Of a DNA stretch of 35,622 nucleotides, positions 10,534-28,140 are shown piece after piece. The position numbers were made by a program, and so were the translations under genes. The stretch is from Vicinamibacterales bacterium. GTDB taxonomy: Bacteria > Acidobacteriota > Vicinamibacteria > Vicinamibacterales > UBA8438. The notes under the pieces are model-generated. The model was not told the DNA's origin. It saw only the letters and a program-made list of their open reading frames with translations, and did no database searches. Location: the NCBI GenBank assembly GCA_029940535.1, contig JAPYUM010000012.1, forward strand, positions 1 to 35,622. The letters are read 5' to 3'. Every line of letters begins with the position of its first letter. Position 1 is the first letter of the stretch.

Positions 10534-10568
10534 GAACATAGGACGCATTAGAGCGCCCCCGTGGCTCG
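10534..10568 (+). repeat. Dispersed repeat, partial copy (left 35 bp)
   Basis: These 35 bases (GAACATAGGACGCATTAGAG, then CGCCCCCGTGGCTCG) are identical to the left part of the 93-bp repeat at 15226 and differ at one base from the copy at 18198. The match stops abruptly at 10568, where the NTF2-like gene begins. The gene's GTG start codon lies inside the repeat. Confidence 0.85.
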
Positions 10569-12217: not shown

Positions 12218-13201
12218 CTAGCGTCCTGAGGCTTCGTCCACGCGCGCGCCACGAAGGATGTTCATCAGCCCGTAGTTGCCTTCGTGACAGGCGTACTCAA
12301 AGACCGCGCCTTCTGACTTTCGCATAGGCAACGCGACTGTGAAGGGACGCGTGAACGTGGCCGGATCGTCTACCGTGTACTCGTAGAGCAGCGTGTCGTC
12401 GTCGACCCGCGTGAACCGCTCAGTCAGATGCAGGGTCTCGCCACTGCCCAATCCAGCTGTGGCGCCCGGGTCGAAACTCGCCGTCCTGTCGGTGAAGTTG
12501 TGCGACTCGACGACCAGGGTGTCGCCCTCCCAGTGCCCGCGGGCATCCCCCGCCCACTGCCGAACACCAGCGAGATGGGGACGCCCGTCGAGAGGAACAA
12601 CCCTCGTGTCGTGCACCATCTCGTTGAGGATGACGACGTGATTCGTCGTCTGGAACAGCTGCATGTTGTTGTTGTAGCCGCTCGGCATCATGGGCGGTCC
12701 GGAGTTGAAGCCGACGAGGCATCGCTCTCCCAGCGCTCGGTCCTCGGGGCCGTCCAGTCCGATGCCACCACTGCGATACCGCACCGGTCGCTCGCCCGGC
12801 ACGTCCTGTGTCAGCGACCCGAACTGCGGCGCGACGCCGTCGACGAGGGCGGGGAGTTGCCCGTCGGGTGGGTCGATGATGAGCGACGTCTGGCGCCCCT
12901 CCACGACATTGGTGCCCAGATCGAACCAGAATGCGTTGTAGGCGCCGATCTTTCCGCCGATCGACTCGACCAGGGCGGTCTGCGTGGCGGCGGCCCGGGC
13001 TTCCGTTTCGGCCGCCTGTTCCTCGGTCAACGCCGTCTGATCACCGAGCCCCCTCGGCCGTTGCAGCGGCGTAATCGTCCGGAAGTCCCATACGCCTTGC
13101 AGATCGGGCCGGCCGTCCGGCAGCCGGGGCGCGTCTTGAGCCCCCGCCGGCGCCGAACCTACCAGCAGGGCGAACAACATCGGCAGCACTTTGCGTGTCA
13201 T
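12218..13201 (-). CDS. Exported protein of unnamed acidobacterial-type family
   Basis: 327 residues with a clear signal peptide (MTRKVLPMLFALLVGSAPAGAQ, cleaved after AGA). The mature start RLPDGRPDLQGVWDFRTITPLQRP and the elements LGERCLVGF, NEMVHDTRVV, GHWEGDTLVVES and FEYACHEGNYG recur in the protein encoded at 27088-28140, so these are paralogues. The family is common in acidobacterial genomes as far as I remember, without an assigned function. The conserved Cys/His/Glu in YACHE and the Trp-Glu-Gly-Asp motif suggest a binding or catalytic site. The ATG has GAGG about ten bases upstream. No operon partner is seen; it converges with the permease relic. Confidence 0.85.
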   Translation of the reverse strand: MTRKVLPMLFALLVGSAPAGAQDAPRLPDGRPDLQGVWDFRTITPLQRPRGLGDQTALTEEQAAETEARAAATQTALVESIGGKIGAYNAFWFDLGTNVVEGRQTSLIIDPPDGQLPALVDGVAPQFGSLTQDVPGERPVRYRSGGIGLDGPEDRALGERCLVGFNSGPPMMPSGYNNNMQLFQTTNHVVILNEMVHDTRVVPLDGRPHLAGVRQWAGDARGHWEGDTLVVESHNFTDRTASFDPGATAGLGSGETLHLTERFTRVDDDTLLYEYTVDDPATFTRPFTVALPMRKSEGAVFEYACHEGNYGLMNILRGARVDEASGR

Positions 13202-15318: not shown

Positions 15319-15753
15319 AGCGCGTGGGTGCCCGACGGTCTCCGGGGGTCGGGCCCGGGCAACGCCGTGCGGTACTGGGTCGTCTCGGGTTCCGACTATC
15401 TGGCGAAGGCCGACGTCTGGCCGCTCGACCCGCAGGGGGAGCTTCTCAACATGATCCAGATCGAGAACAAGCTCGGGATCGCCAATGTCGAGGAGATCGC
15501 CAAGGTGCCGGGGGGGCAGCATGCTGATGGCGGCGCCTGGCGACCTCGGCATGGCCGACGGCGGAGATGCCGCGCAACCGAGGAGGCGATCCAGACCGTC
15601 CCTCATGCGGCAACCGCCGCGGGGCTACCCTGCGCCATCACGGCGAATGCCGGTGACGTGGAGCGCCGGATCCAGGAAGGCTTCAAGGTGCTCGTCGGCA
15701 ACCACGAGATGATCGCCGTTGGTGTAAATGACCGGCGAGCCCACCCCGGTTAG
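15319..15753 (+). pseudogene. 3' fragment of HpcH/HpaI-type aldolase gene
   Basis: The translated fragment reads like the C-terminal half of HpcH/HpaI aldolases, class II enzymes that cleave 4-hydroxy-2-oxoacids: PDGLRGSGPGNAVRYW, ADVWPLDPQGELLNMIQIE, IANVEEIAKVPG, then in another frame SMLMAAPGDLGMADGG, then back in the first frame EEAIQTV and PCAITANAGDVERRIQEGFK. The first half of the gene, with its promoter and start, is absent; the homology begins at the edge of repeat copy A. The first frame change lies at a run of seven G (15510-15516) and the second near 15570. The fragment cannot be functional whatever the cause of the frameshifts. Confidence 0.82.
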
Positions 15754-16631
15754 GGTTCCGACCGGGCCGGATTGACCGTCACCGAGACCTCGGCCGAGCC
15801 CAGCAGCACCGTGTCATCAGCCACAGCCTGCAGCACGTACGTGCCAGGCTTGCTGAAGCTGGCTCGGGTGACGGCACGTCCGCCCTCGCCGACCTCAGGC
15901 ACCTGAGGCTCGAAGGTCACCATCCCGGGTCCCCGCCAATGCAGCCAGGTCACGGCGAGCCCTGTATCCCCGGCGTTTCGTGCGTCGACCACCGCCTGTG
16001 ATTTCGGTCCCCGGCGAGGCTTTCGCTCCCCGAGTTTTGGGTTGGGAGGCGGGATGCCGTCGTCGCCGGCGATCACCGATATCTCCAGAGAATTAGGCAA
16101 CGTCACTTCGAGACCAGCGCCCGCTCCGTCGATACTGATGAACGGGCGCTGATTGTCGGTGAACCCCTGCGCGCTGCCCGAACCGCGGTTGAGCCGCATG
16201 ACACCGTCATCCATCTCCCAGACCGGGAGCAAATGTCCGAACGCCTGGTCGGTCTTGCCATTATGCGTGACGGTCCAGACCAGATCCTTGTCGCCCCAGT
16301 CGGCCGGCACCCGCACCGAAAAGACGAACTGCTGACGCCGGTTGTAGAAGTGTGTCGGCTGTCCGCGGTCCGCCAGTCCGGGCTCGAACGTGTTGTTCGC
16401 TCCGACCGGCACCACCGGCTGCTCCTCATAGTTTCGGTTGAGATACCCGAAGACCATGTCGAACGAACCGTCGGCGTTTCTCTCCCACCCCTCGAAGACG
16501 GGCTGGATGTTCTGCCCCCGACTCCAACGCTCCTGCGCTGATGCCGTGGAGCCAAGCAAGGCGGCGACCAGAACCGCCACGCAGACCGCCACGCGACTCT
16601 GTGATTCTCTAAGCATGAGACGTCTTCCCAT
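15750..16631 (-). CDS. Exported beta-rich protein of unknown function
   Basis: 293 residues with a signal peptide (VAVCVAVLVAALLGSTASAQ, cleaved after ASA). The mature part has many aromatic, strand-like segments (GSFDMVFGYLNRNYEEQP, RRQQFVFSVRVPADWGDKDL) and ends in an Ig-like region (GTYVLQAVADD..., then VSVTVNP). I recognise no named family. It starts eight bases after the stop of the cytochrome/copper monooxygenase-like gene, with AGGT before its ATG, so the two are an operon. It may be a binding or accessory protein for that enzyme (inference). Its stop slightly overlaps the end of the convergent aldolase fragment. Confidence 0.8.
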   Translation of the reverse strand: MGRRLMLRESQSRVAVCVAVLVAALLGSTASAQERWSRGQNIQPVFEGWERNADGSFDMVFGYLNRNYEEQPVVPVGANNTFEPGLADRGQPTHFYNRRQQFVFSVRVPADWGDKDLVWTVTHNGKTDQAFGHLLPVWEMDDGVMRLNRGSGSAQGFTDNQRPFISIDGAGAGLEVTLPNSLEISVIAGDDGIPPPNPKLGERKPRRGPKSQAVVDARNAGDTGLAVTWLHWRGPGMVTFEPQVPEVGEGGRAVTRASFSKPGTYVLQAVADDTVLLGSAEVSVTVNPARSEP

Positions 16632-16639
16632 GATTCGAC

Positions 16640-17932
16640 CTACTCGTCGTTGTCTGTCTGCCCCTTCCGCGCCTCGACCTTTTTCTCGAAGGTCTCATCG
16701 TCGATCTCGTAATAGCTCACCCAGGCAAAGCTCATCTCGTCGTTCGACCGCTGTCCGAAGCCAGCCCAGTTGGTCGGGTCATCGTTCCACCGATTGGCGT
16801 CAGAATTATCGTGCCAGCTCGTGACGTGAAGCGTCGTGCCCTTCGGCAACAGCGGCGCTACGTCGTCCTCGTAGTTGTAGACAATATGCCAGCCGAAGTC
16901 CCAGTCGGCACAGCTGAGGATCTGCTTGGTGTTGTCCGGAAGAACCGCCCCCAGGCACTGTCGCTTGCCCAGGTTGTGCAGGTGGGCCTGGAAGGCGGTG
17001 ATGTGCGCATTCTCCTTCAAGCGGTAGAAACCGTCGTGCCGTACGTTCGACTCACCGGCCGGAATATCGAGATCCTCGTCGTCACCCACGTGAGCGGAGA
17101 TGAGCTCTCTCTCGGGAACCACGCCCCTCGGATAGAACGTGATCCCAACGCGCGTGCGGTCCGTGGTCTCGACGCCGTTCGCAGCGTAGTGCATGTTGAA
17201 CTTGATCTGCGACCCGGCCTTGATCATCCGACCGGTCCCGTCGGGAAAGATGTCGCCGTTCTTACCGAGCGCATACTCGTTCAGGAAGTTGTAGTCGTCG
17301 TCGTCAGACTCCGGGTCGGACATGCTGGTCACCGCGTGGTGAACCACCGGGAACCCTTCGATCGAAGGCTTGGTCTCGACCGCCTTGACCCATCGGTCCT
17401 CCGTCAGGCCGGAGTCGGACACGAGGTCGCCCCACCAGTTGGGTGCCGCGGCCGCGACGACGAAGGGCTCGGGGATCTCGACCACCCAGTCGGGCTCGCC
17501 GATCTTCCACTCGGCGATGTCGCGGAACTGCCGAGCCGGGGGCATGTCGGCGAGGTTGCCCTGGGGCGCACCGTTGTCGACCCAGGCCGCGATCGTGGAA
17601 ATCTCGTCATCGGTCAGTGAGTAGTCGTACTTGAACTCCTGCACCCCGATGTTCTTGTCGATGTACCAAGGCGGCATCGCGCGCGTGATCACTTTGTCCT
17701 TGATCGAACGCGCCCACGGCCGCGCCTCCTCGTAGGTGAGGAGCGACATGGGGGCGATCGAATCGGTCCGGTGACACTCCTGGCAGGAACGCTGCAGGAT
17801 CGGCGCGACATCCTTCGTGAACGTGACCTCGGCATCATTCTGAGCTGCCGATACCGACGGCAACGCCACGACGCCCAGAGCGGCTACCAGGGCCACCGCC
17901 AGCACGAATCGGCTATGAGTAAAAAGTGACAT
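16640..17932 (-). CDS. Cytochrome c fused to PHM-like copper type II monooxygenase
   Basis: 430 residues. A signal peptide (to about residue 30, SVSAAQ) is followed by a cytochrome c region with heme motif C50-Q-E-C53-H54. The remainder matches the two copper domains of peptidylglycine alpha-hydroxylating monooxygenase. All six expected copper ligands can be placed: H198-H199 (FPVVHHAV) and H248 (FNMHYAANG) for one copper; H317-x-H319 (AHLHNLGKR) and M400 (SNDEMSFAWVSYY) for the other. Such enzymes hydroxylate C-H bonds with O2 and a reductant; the fused heme probably feeds electrons. The substrate is unknown and need not be a peptide. GGAGG lies eight bases before ATG 17932; an inverted repeat lies further upstream. 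It leads an operon with the 293-residue exported protein. Confidence 0.88.
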   Translation of the reverse strand: MSLFTHSRFVLAVALVAALGVVALPSVSAAQNDAEVTFTKDVAPILQRSCQECHRTDSIAPMSLLTYEEARPWARSIKDKVITRAMPPWYIDKNIGVQEFKYDYSLTDDEISTIAAWVDNGAPQGNLADMPPARQFRDIAEWKIGEPDWVVEIPEPFVVAAAAPNWWGDLVSDSGLTEDRWVKAVETKPSIEGFPVVHHAVTSMSDPESDDDDYNFLNEYALGKNGDIFPDGTGRMIKAGSQIKFNMHYAANGVETTDRTRVGITFYPRGVVPERELISAHVGDDEDLDIPAGESNVRHDGFYRLKENAHITAFQAHLHNLGKRQCLGAVLPDNTKQILSCADWDFGWHIVYNYEDDVAPLLPKGTTLHVTSWHDNSDANRWNDDPTNWAGFGQRSNDEMSFAWVSYYEIDDETFEKKVEARKGQTDNDE

Positions 17933-17957
17933 CGTCCCCGCCTCCAAATCCAAGACT

Positions 17958-17973
17958 GTGCGTCAAGACGCAC
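17958..17973. promoter_or_regulatory. Inverted repeat upstream of PHM-like gene
   Basis: GTGCGTC (17958-17964) and GACGCAC (17967-17973) form a perfect 7-bp dyad with a 2-base centre, 26 bases before the start codon of the cytochrome/PHM-like gene. A -10-like TATGTA (minus strand, 17980-17975) lies just beyond it, without a convincing -35. It could be an operator or a hairpin in the 5' leader. Confidence 0.4.
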
Positions 17974-18093
17974 GTACATAATTCCGAGGGCTGACAGCCT
18001 AGTTTAGCCCAGGATAGAGACCGACTGAAAGCCTTTCTTGCCTCGACCAGACGGGCCCCGGGGGCCTAAATGGAGACGAGACAGCCGCTTGCC

Positions 18094-18189
18094 ATGACTC
18101 AGCTCAAACGCTCGGTCGGACTGACCTCACTCATCTTTCATGGCCTGGGCACGATGGTGGGAGCTGGTTTCTACGCGCTGGTGAGTTGA
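18094..18189 (+). pseudogene. N-terminal stub of an amino acid permease (APC family)
   Basis: From ATG 18094 the frame reads MTQLKRSVGLTSLIF, HGLGTMVGAGFYALV, then a stop. This matches the opening of APC-superfamily amino acid permeases, whose first helix carries GLGTMVGAGFYAL-type sequence. A full protein would have some 400 or more further residues; none are present. The homology ends about 14 bases before repeat copy B at 18198, so the gene was cut at or next to that repeat. Confidence 0.75.
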
Positions 18190-18197
18190 GTGGCCGG

Positions 18198-18290
18198 CCG
18201 AACATAGGACGCATGAGAGCGCCCCCGTGGCTCGGGTCCTCCCTGTGCCGGTTATCATAACGCCCACTATCGGACCCAGCGGAGCGCCAC
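18198..18290 (+). repeat. 93-bp dispersed repeat, full copy B
   Basis: Same orientation and 91/93 identity to copy A at 15226-15318. It lies between the permease stub and a 155-bp stretch without recognised genes (18291-18445). Together with copy A it brackets the aldolase fragment, the exported 293-residue protein, the PHM-like gene and the permease stub as 2.97 kb of sequence between direct repeats. Confidence 0.92.
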
Positions 18291-18445
18291 GGTAGTCGAT
18301 GGGCGATTCCCATGGTCATGCCGGCCGGCTGAGTGCAACGGTCGGACACAACAAAGGCACCGCGACTTTCGAATTTGTCCAGCACGACGACGCCCGGCGG
18401 GCGTCGCGTGATGGAATCCGCGGCACGTTTTGCTAGTACGGTCCA

Positions 18446-19582
18446 CTAGTCTCGCGGCACCATGCCGGTGAACCTGAACTTCTGCGCGCGACGGCCGCGC
18501 TGCGCCTCGGCGGTGTAGATGTTCCCCTGACTGTCGCTGGCGATGTGATGCAGCGCCTGGAACGCGCCCGGCTCTTCGCCGGTGCTGCCGAACGAGTCGA
18601 GCACTTCGAGCGTCTGGCGGTCCACGACGTGGACCAGCGAGTTGCCCTGATCCGCGATGTACAGGAACTGTTGCTGCTGGTCGGGCGAGAAGGCCACGCC
18701 GGCCACGGTAGATGCGCTGTCGGCGTTGCGGTTCACGAAGCCCTGGGTCGAATAGGTGCCGTCGAGCGTGAAGACTTGAAGTCGGCTATTGTTCCGGTCC
18801 GCCACATACACCAGCCCGTCATTGGAGACCTCGATGCCGTGCACGGTGGCGAACTGTTGGGGGCCCTGCTCGTCGTCGGCCGGCGTGTCCGGCGCCGCAT
18901 CCATCGGCTCGCTGCCGAAGGCGCCCCACATGCGTTTGAACGCCCCGGTGTCGGCATCCAGCACGATCACGCGACGGTTGCCATAGCCGTCGGCCACGAA
19001 TACCTCGTTCGTTTCCTCGTAGACAAACGACTCCGCCGGGCGCCGCAGGTTGTCGGTGTCGGTGTTTCCGCCGCTCACGCCGCGGCCGCCGATCTGTAGC
19101 AGCAGCTCGCCCGTGTTGGTGAGCTTGAGCAGCATGTCGTCCGACTCCGGGTCGCCTCCATTTCCGCCCACCCAGATGTGCCCCTGGTGGTCCGCGTGGA
19201 TGCCATGCTCGTTCCCGGGCCAGTCGAAGTCGGCGGTCGGTCCACCCCAGGCGTTGATGAAAGCGCCGTCGGCGTCGAACTCGAGCACCGGCGGGGCCGC
19301 GTTGGCCTCCTCCCCCTCCTCGACCGTATGCGGCCGGTGCAGCACCCAGACATGGTCGCGCCCATCCACCGTCACCGATGCGACCTGTCCCAGTACCCAG
19401 TCGTTTGGCAGGGCGGGCCAGGAGGCATCGACAGCGAACGTGGGAATCTGCGGTGGCTCGGCCACGGCCGGTGCAGCCGCTTCGCCGGCCTCTTCCGGCT
19501 CAGAGCCTGGTGCCGCGCAGCTGATCGCGCCGAGACACAGCGCGGTGGCGACGAATGCGATGACGTCTGGTTCGTATCTCAT
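18446..19582 (-). CDS. PAL-like six-bladed beta-propeller protein (NHL type)
   Basis: 378 residues, exported and possibly a lipoprotein (LGAISC, Cys22), with an Ala/Glu/Pro-rich linker to about residue 47. The rest is NHL-type propeller and matches peptidyl-alpha-hydroxyglycine alpha-amidating lyase. The key residues can be placed: R83 in VLHRPH, H126 in EHGI, Y200 in VADGYGNRR, H248 in VHGIEVSNDG, and H345 in LHHIASD; ADRNNSRLQVF follows the third. The three His would bind zinc and Arg/Tyr act in catalysis. One difference: the Asp after the last His of animal PAL is His346 here. PAL cleaves hydroxylated glycine peptides to amides; bacterial relatives may act on other N-acyl or hydroxy compounds. 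The start at 19582 gives a clean signal sequence. Its neighbour across repeat B is PHM-like. Confidence 0.85.
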   Translation of the reverse strand: MRYEPDVIAFVATALCLGAISCAAPGSEPEEAGEAAAPAVAEPPQIPTFAVDASWPALPNDWVLGQVASVTVDGRDHVWVLHRPHTVEEGEEANAAPPVLEFDADGAFINAWGGPTADFDWPGNEHGIHADHQGHIWVGGNGGDPESDDMLLKLTNTGELLLQIGGRGVSGGNTDTDNLRRPAESFVYEETNEVFVADGYGNRRVIVLDADTGAFKRMWGAFGSEPMDAAPDTPADDEQGPQQFATVHGIEVSNDGLVYVADRNNSRLQVFTLDGTYSTQGFVNRNADSASTVAGVAFSPDQQQQFLYIADQGNSLVHVVDRQTLEVLDSFGSTGEEPGAFQALHHIASDSQGNIYTAEAQRGRRAQKFRFTGMVPRD

Positions 19583-19699: not shown

Positions 19700-21139
19700 T
19701 CAGCGTCCCGCGGCCGACGCGTCGGCCGCAAGCTCCACGAGCAGGCGGCCGACCTCCTCGTAGGTCTTTTGGGTGTTCGCGACGAAGACGCCGCGCGTCA
19801 TGTCGAGCGGCGTCCAGCCCTGTGAGCTCTGCACGTCTAGCCGCGCCCCCTGCCCGATCAGATAGCGGACGATCGACGGCGCGTCGCGGATGACCGCTCC
19901 GTGCAACGCCGTGTTCCCACCCCAGCGCAGGTCGCCCAGCGGTGCCGCCTCGAAGTCAGTCTCCGCGTTGACGTCTGCGCCGAGCTCCACCGCCAGCGTG
20001 ACCGCGGCGAGCGCTTCCGCCTGGGTGCCGGGCGACTCGGCGAGCCAGTAGCCGAGGCCGGCGGCCGCCATGAGCGGTGTGATGTTCTGCGGCGTGGCCA
20101 ACAATGGGTCGGCGCCGTGCTCGACCAGTAGCCGCATCAGCGGCACGTCCGCGCTCTTGGCTGCCACGAAGAACGGTGTCGCGCCCACCCAACTCAGATA
20201 GGTCGGTGCCACCGAGACGTCACGCGGGACGCGGACCCGCCCCGACACCTTGTTGAACGGCGGCTCTTCCCAGGTGATGCGGGCGTCGGGGTCGGCGCCG
20301 GCCTCGAGCAGCCGGTCGGCCAGCGTCAGGCTGTCGAGCGTGCCGGTCGGGACGCGAGGCATCACGATCGTGGTGGACGGGGTGCCCGGCCGCCGCACCC
20401 AGGCGAGCACATGCAACGCCGAGCCGCGAGCGTCCTCGACGTTCGGGTCGGCGCCGGCGTCGAGGAGCTCGGCGGCGAGCTCGTAGTGAGCGTTGAGGAT
20501 CGCGAGCACCAGGACACTCGTGCCGTCTGGCGCGGTCTCGGTGACCTGTGCGCGCGCGTCGAGCAGCAGCCGGGTCGTCGCGATGTCGCCACGCCGCACC
20601 GCGAACAGCAGAGGGGTGAACTTGTCGTTCGACGCCGCGTGCACGTCGGCCCCGTGCTCGATGAGGAGTCGCGCCACCGCGGGGTGCCCTTCGGCGGCCG
20701 CCCACATCAGCGCCGTCTGGCCGCGCCATCCCTCCCGTGCGTTGGGGTCGGCGCCATGCGCGATCAGTTGCTCGACCACTTCCGGCGTTCCGGTGCGCGC
20801 GGCGGTCAGCAGGGGCGTCTCTCCGTCGAGTGCGGCCTGGTCGGGAGCGGCCCCCGCGTCGAGCAACCGTTCGATCATCGAGGCGCTGCCGTTCAGGGCG
20901 GCCAGCGAGAGCGGCGTGACCTGATAGCGGTTGGCGGCGTTCACGTCGGCGCCGGCCGCGATGAGACGCTCGGTCAACTCCACGTCATCGTGCTGGACCG
21001 CGCGGTGCAACGCTGTCGTGCCGTCCGCCTCGGTGGCGTTCACGTCGACCGGTTGGCCCGCGGCGCTGGCGGCCGCCGAGACGACGGCCACCAGGCAGGC
21101 GCATCGTATCCAAACACCCGTCGACGGGTAGCTGGTCAT
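19700..21139 (-). CDS. Exported ankyrin-repeat protein
   Basis: 479 residues. A signal peptide (VWIRCACLVAVVSAAASAAGQ) precedes about ten ankyrin repeats with the usual DGTTALHRAV, GADVNA and LLDAGAD elements, for example near residues 38-70, 71-103, 104-137 and 138-172; the repeats near 250-330 are less regular. Ankyrin stacks bind proteins; an exported one in Acidobacteria is likely periplasmic. Its start codon overlaps the upstream region of the divergent PSD1-type cytochrome gene, a neighbour arrangement I recall as frequent in this phylum. Catalytic function is not expected. Confidence 0.92.
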   Translation of the reverse strand: MTSYPSTGVWIRCACLVAVVSAAASAAGQPVDVNATEADGTTALHRAVQHDDVELTERLIAAGADVNAANRYQVTPLSLAALNGSASMIERLLDAGAAPDQAALDGETPLLTAARTGTPEVVEQLIAHGADPNAREGWRGQTALMWAAAEGHPAVARLLIEHGADVHAASNDKFTPLLFAVRRGDIATTRLLLDARAQVTETAPDGTSVLVLAILNAHYELAAELLDAGADPNVEDARGSALHVLAWVRRPGTPSTTIVMPRVPTGTLDSLTLADRLLEAGADPDARITWEEPPFNKVSGRVRVPRDVSVAPTYLSWVGATPFFVAAKSADVPLMRLLVEHGADPLLATPQNITPLMAAAGLGYWLAESPGTQAEALAAVTLAVELGADVNAETDFEAAPLGDLRWGGNTALHGAVIRDAPSIVRYLIGQGARLDVQSSQGWTPLDMTRGVFVANTQKTYEEVGRLLVELAADASAAGR

Positions 21140-21149
21140 GAATATGGCC

Positions 21150-21157
21150 AGTATACT
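21150..21157. promoter_or_regulatory. Palindromic -10-like element between divergent genes
   Basis: AGTATACT is self-complementary and offers TATACT on both strands. On the plus strand it lies 23 bases before ATG 21180 of the cytochrome gene, a suitable distance. No -35 box of quality was found in either direction. Confidence 0.25.
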
Positions 21158-21179
21158 AACGGATACGCTCCACGGTCAC

Positions 21180-23540
21180 ATGATGGCGCTTAGGACACTG
21201 AGCCTCCCGTTGCGCTCCGCCACCGGCCTGCTGGTTGCCCTGGCATGCGGACTGGCGCTGCCGCCTCAGGTCGCTGGACAGCCGCCCTCCAACCCACCCG
21301 CCGCGGCCATCGACCGTGCGCTGCTCGACCGCTACTGCGTCACCTGCCACAACGCACGCCTGAGGACCGGCGGACTGTCGCTCGACGGCGTCGACGTTGG
21401 TACGGTCGCGCGCGATCCCGAGGTGTGGGAACAGGTCGCGCGCAAGCTCCGCGCCGGTGCGATGCCGCCGGCGGGCCGGCCACGGCCCGATGCGGCCACG
21501 GTGACCGCGCTGGTCTCGCGGCTTGAGGCCGGCCTCGACCGGGCTGCGGTGGCGGCGCCTGACCCGGGTCGCACCGAGCCGTTCCACCGCCTGAACCGGA
21601 CCGAGTACGCCAACGGTATCCGCGACCTGCTGGCGCTTGAGCCGGTGTCGGTCGACTTCCTGCTGCCCGCCGACGACACCAGCTATGGGTTCGACAACAT
21701 CGCCGGCGTGCTAGGGATGTCGCCGACGCTCATGGAGCGGTATCTAGCCGCCGCCGGCGAGATCAGCCGCCTGGCGGTCGGCGACCCGTCGATTCCGGTG
21801 ACCAGCGACCGCTACCGATCACCTTCCGACCTGTCCCAGGACGTCCGGCTCGCCGCCATGCCGCTCGGCACGCGGGGCGGCATCGCCATCCGGCGGTACT
21901 TCCCGCTCGATGCCGAGTACGTCGTCACGGTGCAGCTCACTGGCGTGCGTCGTCTCGACGCTCCGCATACCCTGGAGGTGCTGGTCGACGGCGCACCGGT
22001 GCACGCGGTCAACCTCGGCGGCGAGACGGCCGACGAGACGCCGTCGGAGGTCGCCGTTCGGCTGCCACTGTCCGCCGGTCCGCACGAAGTGCAGGTGGCG
22101 TTCGTCCAGAAGAGCGCCGCGCAGAGCGAGGGGCTCCTGCTGCCATTCCTGCGACCACGCCGCTACGGCCTTGGCGGCCGACCGTATCTCAGTGGCGTCG
22201 AAGTCGCGGGTCCCTATGGCGCGACGGGTCCGGGGGACACGCCGAGCCGGCGCCGTCTCTTCAGTTGCCGACCTGGGGATGCGGCTGCCGAGCGGCCGTG
22301 CGCCCGTCAGATCCTCGCGAGTCTGGCACGACGCGGCTTCCGACGACCGGTCACGGACGCGGACCTCGACCTGCTGCTGACGTTCTATGACGTTGGCCAC
22401 ACGCGTGGCGGGTTCGAACGGGGCATCCAGGCGGCGCTCGAACGGCTGCTGGTCAGCCCGGAGTTTCTCTTCCGGGTCGAGCGCGACCCGGCAGACGCGG
22501 CGCCCGGCGCGCCCTATCGGATCAGCGGGTTCGAGCTGGCCTCGCGCCTGTCTTTCTTCCTGTGGAGCAGCGTGCCGGACGACCAGCTGCTGGCCCTGGC
22601 CGAGGCGGGGCGTCTCGCCGAGCCGGAGGTGCTCGACGCGCAGGTGCGACGGATGCTGGCCGACGAGCGCGCCGCCGCGCTGCTGCGGAACTTTGCCGGC
22701 CAGTGGCTCCACCTGCGGAATCTCGACGCGGCCGTGCCAGATGCCGTCCGCTTCCCCGACTTTGACGAACGGCTGCGGCTGGCGCTCCGGCGCGAGACCG
22801 AGCTACTGGTCGAGAGCGTGCTCCGCGAGGAGCGCAGCGTGCTCGACCTGTTGACGGCCGACTACACCTTTGTCAATGAGCGGCTCGCGCGTCACTACGA
22901 CATCCCGAACGTGTATGGCAGTCACTTCCGACGGGTGCAGCTCACCGACGAGCGCCGGCGCGGACTCCTCGGACATGGCAGCATCCTGACCGTCACCTCC
23001 TACGCCCACCGGACGTCGCCGGTGTTGCGTGGCAAGTGGGTGCTCGAAAACCTGCTCGGGATGCCTCCGCCCCCGCCGCCGCCCGATGTGCCGGCGCTCG
23101 TCGAGACGTCCGCCGACGGCGCCGAGTTGTCGATGCGCGAGGCGATGGCCCGGCATCGGGCCAACCCGGCCTGCGCCGGGTGCCATGCCCCCATGGACCC
23201 GATCGGGTTCGCGCTCGAGAACTACGACGCGGTCGGGCGATGGCGGACCGCCACCACGGCCGGGGAGCCGATCGACGCGTCCGGCACGTTGCCGGGTGGC
23301 ACCGCGTTCGAAGGCGTCGAGGGATTGCGCGGGCTGCTGCTGGACCGTCCCGAGACGTTCGTCACGACGGTGACCGAAAAGCTGCTGACCTATGCGTTGG
23401 GCCGTGGCGTCACCTTGAGCGACGCGCCCGCGGTTCGCGCGATCGTGCGTGAGGCGGCGGCGGACAACTATCGGTTGCGCGCGCTCGCCCTGGCCGTGGT
23501 GCGAAGCGTGCCGTTTCAGATGAGGAGAGCGGCGTCATGA
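21180..23540 (+). CDS. PSD1-type multidomain c-type cytochrome (DUF1587/1595/1592/1588/1585)
   Basis: 786 residues from ATG 21180, the start giving a clean signal peptide (ALRTLSLPLRSATGLLVALA..., cut after VAGQ); ATG 21138 is possible but would put the signal 14 residues inside. Domains in order: N-terminal heme motif CVTCH; DUF1587 (FHRLNRTEYANGIRDLL); a carbohydrate-binding-like beta region; DUF1595 (LARRGFRRPVTDADLDLLL); DUF1592 (SPEFLFRVE ... SRLSFFLWSSVPDD); DUF1588 (LLGHGSILTVTSYAHRTSP); a second heme motif CAGCH; and DUF1585 (VTEKLLTYALGRG). These proteins of Planctomycetes and Acidobacteria are periplasmic and of unproven function. The stop overlaps the DUF1552 gene start by four bases, the standard partner. 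Confidence 0.93.
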   Translation: MMALRTLSLPLRSATGLLVALACGLALPPQVAGQPPSNPPAAAIDRALLDRYCVTCHNARLRTGGLSLDGVDVGTVARDPEVWEQVARKLRAGAMPPAGRPRPDAATVTALVSRLEAGLDRAAVAAPDPGRTEPFHRLNRTEYANGIRDLLALEPVSVDFLLPADDTSYGFDNIAGVLGMSPTLMERYLAAAGEISRLAVGDPSIPVTSDRYRSPSDLSQDVRLAAMPLGTRGGIAIRRYFPLDAEYVVTVQLTGVRRLDAPHTLEVLVDGAPVHAVNLGGETADETPSEVAVRLPLSAGPHEVQVAFVQKSAAQSEGLLLPFLRPRRYGLGGRPYLSGVEVAGPYGATGPGDTPSRRRLFSCRPGDAAAERPCARQILASLARRGFRRPVTDADLDLLLTFYDVGHTRGGFERGIQAALERLLVSPEFLFRVERDPADAAPGAPYRISGFELASRLSFFLWSSVPDDQLLALAEAGRLAEPEVLDAQVRRMLADERAAALLRNFAGQWLHLRNLDAAVPDAVRFPDFDERLRLALRRETELLVESVLREERSVLDLLTADYTFVNERLARHYDIPNVYGSHFRRVQLTDERRRGLLGHGSILTVTSYAHRTSPVLRGKWVLENLLGMPPPPPPPDVPALVETSADGAELSMREAMARHRANPACAGCHAPMDPIGFALENYDAVGRWRTATTAGEPIDASGTLPGGTAFEGVEGLRGLLLDRPETFVTTVTEKLLTYALGRGVTLSDAPAVRAIVREAAADNYRLRALALAVVRSVPFQMRRAAS

Positions 23541-24883
23541 TCGTCACCAAGCGGAATCTGCCACGGCGCACCCTGCTGCGTGGGGTGGGGGCGACGCTCG
23601 CCCTCCCGTTCCTGGACGCGATGGCGCCGGCGCTGACGGCGCTTACTCGCACGGCCGCCGCGCCGACCCCGCGTCTCGGCTTTTTCTATGTCCCGAATGG
23701 GGTCGTCCTGCCGGAGTGGCGGCCGGAGGAAACCGGCGCCGGGTTCACGTTGTCGCCCACGCTCGCGCCGCTCGCGCCGTTCCGGGAGCAGGTCATGGTG
23801 TTGACCGGGCTGGCCCACCGGCAGGCCGCGGCGTTCGGCGATGGCAATGGCGACCATTCGCGGGCGAGCGCCGTCTGGTTGACCGGCGTCCACGCGCGGC
23901 AAACCGAGGGCGCCGACGTGCTGGCAGGGGTCAGCGCCGACCAGATCGCCGCGCGGACCCTCGGTCGGCAGACGCCACTCCCGTCACTGGAGCTGGCGCT
24001 CGAAGCCAACGAGCTGATCGGCAACTGCGACGTCGGCTACAGCTGCGTGTATCAGAACACCATTTCGTGGCGGACGCCGACCACACCAGTGCCGATGGAG
24101 ACCCACCCGCGCATCGTCTTCGAACGGCTGTTCGGCGACGGCTCGAGCCCGGAGGCGCGGCGGGCACGGTTGCGGTCGACCCGCAGCATTCTGGACTCGG
24201 TGACCGAGGAGACGGCGCGGCTGCAGCGGACCCTGGGGGCCGGGGACCGCACCCGTATGACGCAGTATCTCGACGCCGTGCGTGACGTCGAGCAGCGGGT
24301 GCAGCGGTCGGAGGATTACAGTGTCGACGCCGGGCTGGAGCTGCCCGAGCGGCCGGTATCCGTTCCGGAGCAGTTCGCCGACCACGCGCGGCTGATGTTC
24401 GACCTGCTGGCGCTGGCCTATCAGGCCGATATCACCCGGGTGTCGACATTCCTCCTCGGTCGCGAACTGAGCCAACGGACCTACCCGGAGATCGGCGTCC
24501 CCGGTCCGCATCACACCTTGTCCCACCACCGGGGCGACGACCAGAAGATCGCACAGGTGGCGAAGATCAACCTGTATCACGTCCAGTTGTTCAGCCGGTT
24601 CCTCGAGACGCTGAGTGCGGTGCCCGACGGCGACGGCTCGCTGCTCGACCACACGCTGCTGGTCTACGGTGGAGGCATCGGAGACGGCAACCTGCACGAG
24701 CACGTCGACCTGCCGGTGCTCCTGGCGGGTGGCGGCGCCTACCTAAGGACGGGGCGTCACGTCGTCTACGGGGAGGAGCCGCCGATGGCGAACCTGCTGT
24801 TGTCCTTGCTCGCTCGGGCGGGGGTCCCGACAGACGCGCTTGGCGACAGCACCGGCCGGCTCGAAGGGCTGTCCGAGCTCTGA
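23537..24883 (+). CDS. DUF1552 protein, Tat-exported partner of PSD1 cytochrome
   Basis: 448 residues. The N-terminus carries a twin-arginine signal (RRTLLRGVGATLALPFLDAM), so it is folded, perhaps with a cofactor, before export. Family features include GFFYVPNGVVLPEW near residue 48, GLAHRQA, GDHSRASAVWLTG, and a C-terminal part with YGGGIGDGNLHEHVDLPVLLAGG that resembles alkaline-phosphatase-fold DUF1501-type proteins. The ATG overlaps the PSD1 cytochrome stop (ATGA), so the two are translated together and probably act together in the periplasm. The reaction is unknown. Confidence 0.92.
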   Translation: MIVTKRNLPRRTLLRGVGATLALPFLDAMAPALTALTRTAAAPTPRLGFFYVPNGVVLPEWRPEETGAGFTLSPTLAPLAPFREQVMVLTGLAHRQAAAFGDGNGDHSRASAVWLTGVHARQTEGADVLAGVSADQIAARTLGRQTPLPSLELALEANELIGNCDVGYSCVYQNTISWRTPTTPVPMETHPRIVFERLFGDGSSPEARRARLRSTRSILDSVTEETARLQRTLGAGDRTRMTQYLDAVRDVEQRVQRSEDYSVDAGLELPERPVSVPEQFADHARLMFDLLALAYQADITRVSTFLLGRELSQRTYPEIGVPGPHHTLSHHRGDDQKIAQVAKINLYHVQLFSRFLETLSAVPDGDGSLLDHTLLVYGGGIGDGNLHEHVDLPVLLAGGGAYLRTGRHVVYGEEPPMANLLLSLLARAGVPTDALGDSTGRLEGLSEL

Positions 24884-26868: not shown

Positions 26869-27087
26869 GGCGTCACCTCCGGGGTGTGTATTGCGTCGGC
26901 CGGCTTGATCGCACCACGGTCCGTTGCAATGTGTCTCCTCGCTGGTAGCGTGCGAAGCGGGAGTACCGCCGACAGGTTATGCCATTCCGGAGTGACGCGG
27001 TAAGACTATCTGGAGCGCTGGTACAGCGGACGATCCGGCCTGGGTGGCGATACAATGGCCCCCAATTCTCATCATCGGGAGGTTCAG

Positions 27088-28140
27088 ATGCGTAGTCGCT
27101 TCGCGGTCGCTCTCAGTGGGCTGGTCGTCGTGTGTCTGAGCGTGGGCTCGGTCGCGACGGCCCAGAACGAGATCCCCCGTACGCCAAGCGGACACCCGGA
27201 CCTGTCGGGCACCTATGACATCTCGACCCTGACGCCGCTGGAGCGCCCCGAGGAGCTCGGTGCACAGATGGCGCTAACCGATGAGGAGGCGGCCGAGATC
27301 GCCGAGCGTCAACGGCAGCGTCGGGCGACCCGCAGCGCCCCGAGCGACCCCAACCGTGGCGCCCCGGCCGAGGGAGGAACCGTCGGTGGCTACAACAACG
27401 TCTACATCGACAACGGCGACAGCGCGTTCCGGATCGGCGGACAATGGCGCACGTCAATCCTCATCGATCCTCTGAACGGCCGGTTCCCGCCGCGGGTCGA
27501 CGGGGCGAGCGGCCGAGGGGCGCGGACCCCGAACCCCGGCACCGCCTTCTGGCTCGAGGACGGGTTCGACGCGCCTGGTCCCTACGACAACATGGAGCAG
27601 CGGCCGTACGGCGAGCGCTGTATGGTCGGGTTCGGCTCGACCGGCGGACCACCAATGCTGCCGGTGCTCTACAACAACCACAAGCGGATCGTGCAGACCG
27701 ACGATACCGTCATGATCCTCACCGAGATGGTGCACGACGCCCGCATCATCCGGATGAACGCCGAGCATGACCCGCCCGAGATCAAGAAGTGGCTCGGTGA
27801 TTCGATCGGGTGGTGGGAGGGCGACACGCTGGTGGTGGAGACCACCAACCTCGTGCCCCGGCCGGGGTTCCGACGCGGCACCGGTAGCATGGCGGTCATC
27901 GAGCGCTTCCGCATGGAGAGCGCCGACCAGTTGGTCTACACCTTCACGGCCGACGACCCGACGGTCTGGACCGCGCCATTCACCGGCGAATATGCCTGGC
28001 CGCGCAGTCCGAACAAGGTGTTCGAGTATGCGTGCCACGAGGCGAACTATGCGCTCCAGGGCATCATGAAGGGTGCGCGGCTGCTCGAGGCGGAGTTCCG
28101 CGGCGAGGAGCCCGAGGGGGTCGCCAACCCAATCCGGTAG
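27088..28140 (+). CDS. Exported protein, paralogue of the 12218-13201 gene
   Basis: 350 residues from ATG 27088, chosen for its GGGAGG ribosome site and for a proper signal peptide (RFAVALSGLVVVCLSVGSVATAQ). It aligns along its length with the minus-strand gene at 12218-13201: TPSGHPDLSGTYDISTLTPL, GERCMVGF, TEMVHDARII, GWWEGDTLVVE, FEYACHEANYALQGI. A TACAAT -10-like box sits at 27051-27056. The family has no function I can name. Longer N-terminal extension by 11 codons is possible but lacks a ribosome site. Confidence 0.87.
   Translation: MRSRFAVALSGLVVVCLSVGSVATAQNEIPRTPSGHPDLSGTYDISTLTPLERPEELGAQMALTDEEAAEIAERQRQRRATRSAPSDPNRGAPAEGGTVGGYNNVYIDNGDSAFRIGGQWRTSILIDPLNGRFPPRVDGASGRGARTPNPGTAFWLEDGFDAPGPYDNMEQRPYGERCMVGFGSTGGPPMLPVLYNNHKRIVQTDDTVMILTEMVHDARIIRMNAEHDPPEIKKWLGDSIGWWEGDTLVVETTNLVPRPGFRRGTGSMAVIERFRMESADQLVYTFTADDPTVWTAPFTGEYAWPRSPNKVFEYACHEANYALQGIMKGARLLEAEFRGEEPEGVANPIR

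Follow-up and report, generated by a model that had tools for sequence, protein, structure and literature searches.

The copper enzyme encoded in this stretch of DNA has as its constant partner an uncharacterised exported protein, here called P3, rather than the PAL-like gene with which it had previously been paired. The DNA studied (the window) is contig JAPYUM010000012.1, positions 1 to 35,622, from a Vicinamibacterales bacterium (assembly GCA_029940535.1). Three genes on its minus strand are of concern here: P0001, a predicted cytochrome c-PHM/DBH-fold dicopper monooxygenase of 430 aa (16640..17932); P3 (P0003), which lies 8 bp downstream of it (15750..16631); and P0002, a PAL-like NHL propeller of 378 aa (18446..19582). 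The initial annotation had suggested that P0001 and P0002 are the two halves of a hydroxylate-then-cleave pathway. Its description of the locus is accurate: the two genes are on the same strand about 0.5 kb apart (the gap is 513 bp), and both products appear to be exported, P0001 having an N-terminal signal peptide (assigned by eye) and P0002 a lipobox-like GAISC in its N-terminal region, from which we conclude that it is probably a lipoprotein. Scanning for promoters and terminators was uninformative. Taken as a whole, the evidence makes it likely that P0001 is a heme-fed PHM/DBH-fold hydroxylase that works with P3, and that the PAL-like gene is separate from it and was placed beside it by rearrangement.

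Sequence profile and structural model identify P0001 as a PHM/DBH-fold monooxygenase that carries an N-terminal cytochrome c, with two predicted copper sites. The heme c motif, C50-x-x-C53-H54, is at 17771..17785. It is followed by all six copper ligands of PHM, as had been proposed: for the CuH site, H198-H199 (17336..17341; PHM H107, H108) and H248 (17189..17191; PHM H172), and for the CuM site, H317-x-H319 (16976..16984; PHM H242, H244) and M400 (16733..16735; PHM M314). The alignment thus provides His, His and His at CuH, and His, His and Met at CuM. A phmmer search of the PDB with the P0001 sequence alone returned only matches at chance level, and a profile was required. The profile built from 40 relatives of P0001 matched human DBH (1e-5) and PHM (1e-3). 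H198-H199, H248 and the HxH motif are here in register with the PHM copper ligands; M400 is aligned to PHM M314 in a second, weaker stretch of the match. Across the 40 aligned relatives the six ligands, the CxxCH motif, M62 and M86 are invariant, and these residues are retained in nearly all intact copies of the wider sequence set.

The AlphaFold model of P0001 (pLDDT 84) has the two-domain PHM fold. Its best 31 matches in Foldseek are all PHM or DBH, and against 26 PHM/DBH entries (VIA) it gives Z scores of 16.5-21.3, the next fold being at 8.9. Rat PHM (1phm, 1opm, 1sdw) superimposes on residues 146-411 with Z about 19 and with the six copper ligands in register. It differs in that identity is only 17-19% and that P0001 adds the N-terminal cytochrome c. 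DBH (4zel) is the closest relative by both measures, being the best profile match and having the highest Z (21.3), but identity across the structural alignment is 14%. In Pfam, P0001 scores 15.9 bits against Cu2_monoox_C, below the curated cut-off of 23, which is a database threshold and no structural criterion; nine of the 40 relatives match this family at E 0.01 or better.

The predicted active site departs from that of PHM proper in a way that bears on the substrate. At the positions of PHM R240, N316 and Y318, which in PHM contact the carboxylate of a peptidyl- or acylglycine substrate, P0001 has Q315, F402 and W404. This replacement argues against acylglycine substrates such as the N-acylglycines suggested in the initial annotation. 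The Gln at the R240 position is shared with DBH. DBH is an animal enzyme that uses ascorbate and carries a DOMON domain in place of the cytochrome c. We found no characterised member of the P0001 enzyme class in the literature and solved structures searched. P0001 would act outside the cytoplasm, where electrons would probably reach it from a periplasmic electron-transfer chain through its own heme; it would bind O2 at the CuM site and hydroxylate a C-H bond of an extracytoplasmic substrate. Heme had already been suggested as the electron source instead of ascorbate, and it is a plausible donor.

The neighbour that P0001 and its relatives keep is P3, directly downstream, which the initial annotation did not mention. 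In other genomes, P3 is found within 700 bp of the PHM gene at 51 of 56 loci, and the remaining five are cut by contig ends. All 51 testable loci therefore have it, and they span Vicinamibacteria, Bryobacterales and Gammaproteobacteria. In the genome of the window itself, P3 accompanies about 19 of the 28 PHM genes (counting two truncated copies), and seven PHM genes without it belong to divergent PHM clades. P3 has a conserved N-terminal domain, for which no significant relative was found, and in some members a PKD/Ig-like C-terminus; a search of the PDB gave no significant match. The two genes probably form a functional module, which is present in many copies in these genomes.

P0002 is an exported PAL-like NHL propeller by both profile and model, and lyase activity is predicted only. 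The model (pLDDT 91) is a six-bladed NHL propeller whose best structural match is rat PAL (3fvz; Z 34.9, 24% identity), with non-lyase NHL domains nearly level with it at Z 34.4. The profile of the PAL-like family finds 3fvz in the PDB at 4e-36. For the N-terminal half of P0002, PAL is the first match (2.6e-6), and the phmmer alignment places R83 (19334..19336), H126 (19205..19207) and Y200 (18983..18985) on rat PAL R533, H585 (a zinc ligand) and Y654. Motif, spacing and family conservation assign H248 (18839..18841) to the zinc ligand H690, and H345-H346 (18545..18550) to H786-D787, so that the whole zinc, Arg and Tyr set is present, at the positions originally given for it. Profile searches and models, which had been proposed as a check, agree with the PHM/DBH and PAL identities. 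P0002 differs from the rat enzyme in being a probable bacterial lipoprotein and in having His in place of D787. The latter change had been read as a sign of a different substrate. The residue beside the third zinc ligand is His in most of the closest subfamily and Ser, Asn or Gly in paralogs; a position that varies in this way gives little information on the substrate.

The identities of both proteins are thus as originally described, and it is their pairing that does not hold up. Orthologs of the PAL-like gene (54-93% identity, from 20 related genomes) have a PHM gene in their flanks in 0 of 23 cases, some of these flanks being short, and close orthologs of the PHM gene (70-83% identity) have a PAL neighbour in 0 of 12. 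G078, a closed chromosome from a related genus, carries PHM orthologs at 4.07 Mb and 2.76 Mb; its PAL ortholog, at 0.04 Mb, is more than 2 Mb away from them (2.1-2.7 Mb). The nearest pair on a single contig (G080:C89) is about 16 kb apart, with PAL at 57%. Two congeners, G130 and G158, have the PAL-like gene at 93%, with DNA homology that stops at the edges of the gene (18437/19609-19625). Their nearest PHM is at 67-68%, below the 80-84% found in other genera, and the window PHM is absent from them. This implies separate histories for the two genes. The idea that the pair is an old operon was rejected, as the orthologs are apart in all related genomes examined. A PAL-P3-PHM arrangement on another contig of the same genome (C209) was also considered as a conserved pair, but the orthologs of its PHM in five genomes have the PAL on other contigs. 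The conserved PHM-PAL linkage that would characterise a PAM-like two-gene unit is therefore not found, and the absence of the pair from related genomes is the outcome that the initial annotation itself had named as counting against its proposal.

Since relatives of the two genes are not neighbours elsewhere, the pairing looks accidental. In the genome of the window, PHM-like genes number about 28 and PAL-like genes about 30, and at such numbers neighbours arise by chance. Adjacency in G078 is at the chance level, a PAL-like gene lying within 4.5 kb of one of the 21 PHM genes, with 0.66 expected. Some observations go against an accidental pairing. The window genome has four PHM/PAL neighbours within 4.5 kb, compared to 1.6 expected (P 0.07; the expectation is approximate, as genes were taken to be spread evenly over the contigs). 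A closed chromosome of Pseudohongiella shows a looser clustering, 8 of its 33 PHM genes having PAL within 10 kb, with 1.7 expected (P 0.016). In addition, the nearest paralog of the PAL-like gene in the window genome (72%) also adjoins a P3-PHM pair, and two genera share another trio made up of PHM, a DUF2911-like protein and PAL. Overall, adjacency is not clearly more than chance, and the pathway proposed from it is not supported.

How the two genes came to be neighbours is suggested by a dispersed repeat of 93 bp, around which a rearrangement had already been proposed. One copy lies between PAL and PHM (18198..18290, plus strand) and a direct copy, 98% alike, lies beyond P3 (15226..15318, plus strand), so that the PHM-P3 segment is flanked on both sides. 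Its 22 matches in the genome are scattered over many contigs; a further match within the window is at 10534-10568. Movement of the PHM-P3 segment mediated by the repeat would explain the neighbourhood of PHM and PAL. Because no empty site (one without the PHM-P3 segment) was found, we only infer this mechanism.

A different arrangement, on contig C43 of the same genome, is a more credible candidate for a two-step module than the window pair. One strand of this contig (locus L020, 3760-8597) encodes a PHM, an exported DUF2911-like protein and a PAL that has the full active-site set of Arg, Tyr and three His. The trio is also present in three genomes of another genus (L151, 8801-12788; also L160 and L163), with PHM at 76%, the middle protein at 49-61% and PAL at 82-85%, and is therefore kept in two genera; the PHM is present at four of 17 loci of that PAL. 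PAL-like genes were also found 0.25-1.6 kb upstream of gammaproteobacterial PHM genes at eight loci. These were considered as a rescue of the pairing and rejected, having His at the position of Tyr200 and Glu at that of His345. Genes of a PAL-like subfamily with these two changes, at the catalytic Tyr and at the third zinc His, are found near PHM genes in two phyla (L064-L071, L075, L089, L091, L022).

Two other readings of the window deserve consideration. One is that it holds a genuine two-step amide pathway, in which P0001 adds a hydroxyl group at the alpha carbon of an N-acylglycine-like substrate and P0002 cleaves the resulting carbinolamide, as in peptide amidation. Such a division of labour has a bacterial parallel in the demethylation of methylguanidine by MgdH/MgdL, in which an oxygenase hydroxylates and a separate lyase cleaves the carbinolamine; that lyase is reported to have no sequence homology to PAL (PMC12508155). 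The parallel lies in the two-step logic, and differs in that the oxygenase is a 2-oxoglutarate dioxygenase and not a copper enzyme. The intact active-site sets of both proteins, the rank of PAL as top structural match of P0002, the shared strand, the export of both products and the similar setting of the nearest PAL paralog would all suit an amide pathway. We nevertheless consider it quite improbable, given that the pairing is not conserved in relatives, that even the C209 PHM and PAL have their orthologs on different contigs in five genomes, that R240, N316 and Y318 of PHM are Q315, F402 and W404 in P0001, and that a dispersed repeat sits inside the 513-bp gap.

The other reading is that members of the PHM and PAL families act together in trans, or that certain paralogs, such as those of the C43 trio, form two-step modules, the window pair being a loose relic. 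It draws on the conservation of that trio in three genomes of another genus, on the high copy number of candidates from both families in most of 28 genomes of the family, and on the clustering within 10 kb in Pseudohongiella. It too is unlikely: PHM is next door at just 4 of 17 loci of the C43 PAL orthogroup, neither the Tyr nor the third His is kept in the PAL relatives that lie near PHM genes of Gammaproteobacteria, and one genome of the same order has a PAL-like gene and no PHM match. The preferred reading, that of a heme-fed hydroxylase working with P3, would have the PAL-like gene belong to an equally expanded propeller family that evolves separately, its position being due to a rearrangement, probably through dispersed repeats. 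A caveat against it is that enzymes of one pathway need not adjoin.

It is worth adding some observations on the surroundings of these genes. An ankyrin protein, a DUF1592-type protein and a DUF1552 protein are encoded at 19700-24883, and this trio, or a pair from it, recurs beside PHM or PAL genes at many loci (L012, L020, L022, L034, L037, L073, L113, L142); a literature search for DUF1552 together with DUF1592 gave no match. Two members of an exported family with no Pfam match lie at 12218-13201 and 27055-28140, and this family recurs near PHM genes at many loci. The Pseudohongiella chromosome (G163, the genome of L073) has a tandem array of six PHM-like genes at 1833-1847 kb, out of more than 30 in all.

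The window pairing is not to be taken for peptide amidation in bacteria. The object to study is the PHM-P3 module, whose copper enzyme has tens of copies per genome, a built-in heme and a constant partner. We tentatively raise the possibility, which is still doubtful, that cytochrome c-PHM and P3 together make up an unrecognised class of copper hydroxylases that act outside the cytoplasm, are fed by heme and have expanded massively in Acidobacteriota and Gammaproteobacteria. P3 would be obligatory in this class and the substrates many and non-peptide, some paralogs working with PAL-like propellers for oxidative cleavage. The copper enzyme would show how PHM/DBH chemistry proceeds without ascorbate, and a large uncharted oxidation capacity would accrue to bacteria that are mostly uncultured.
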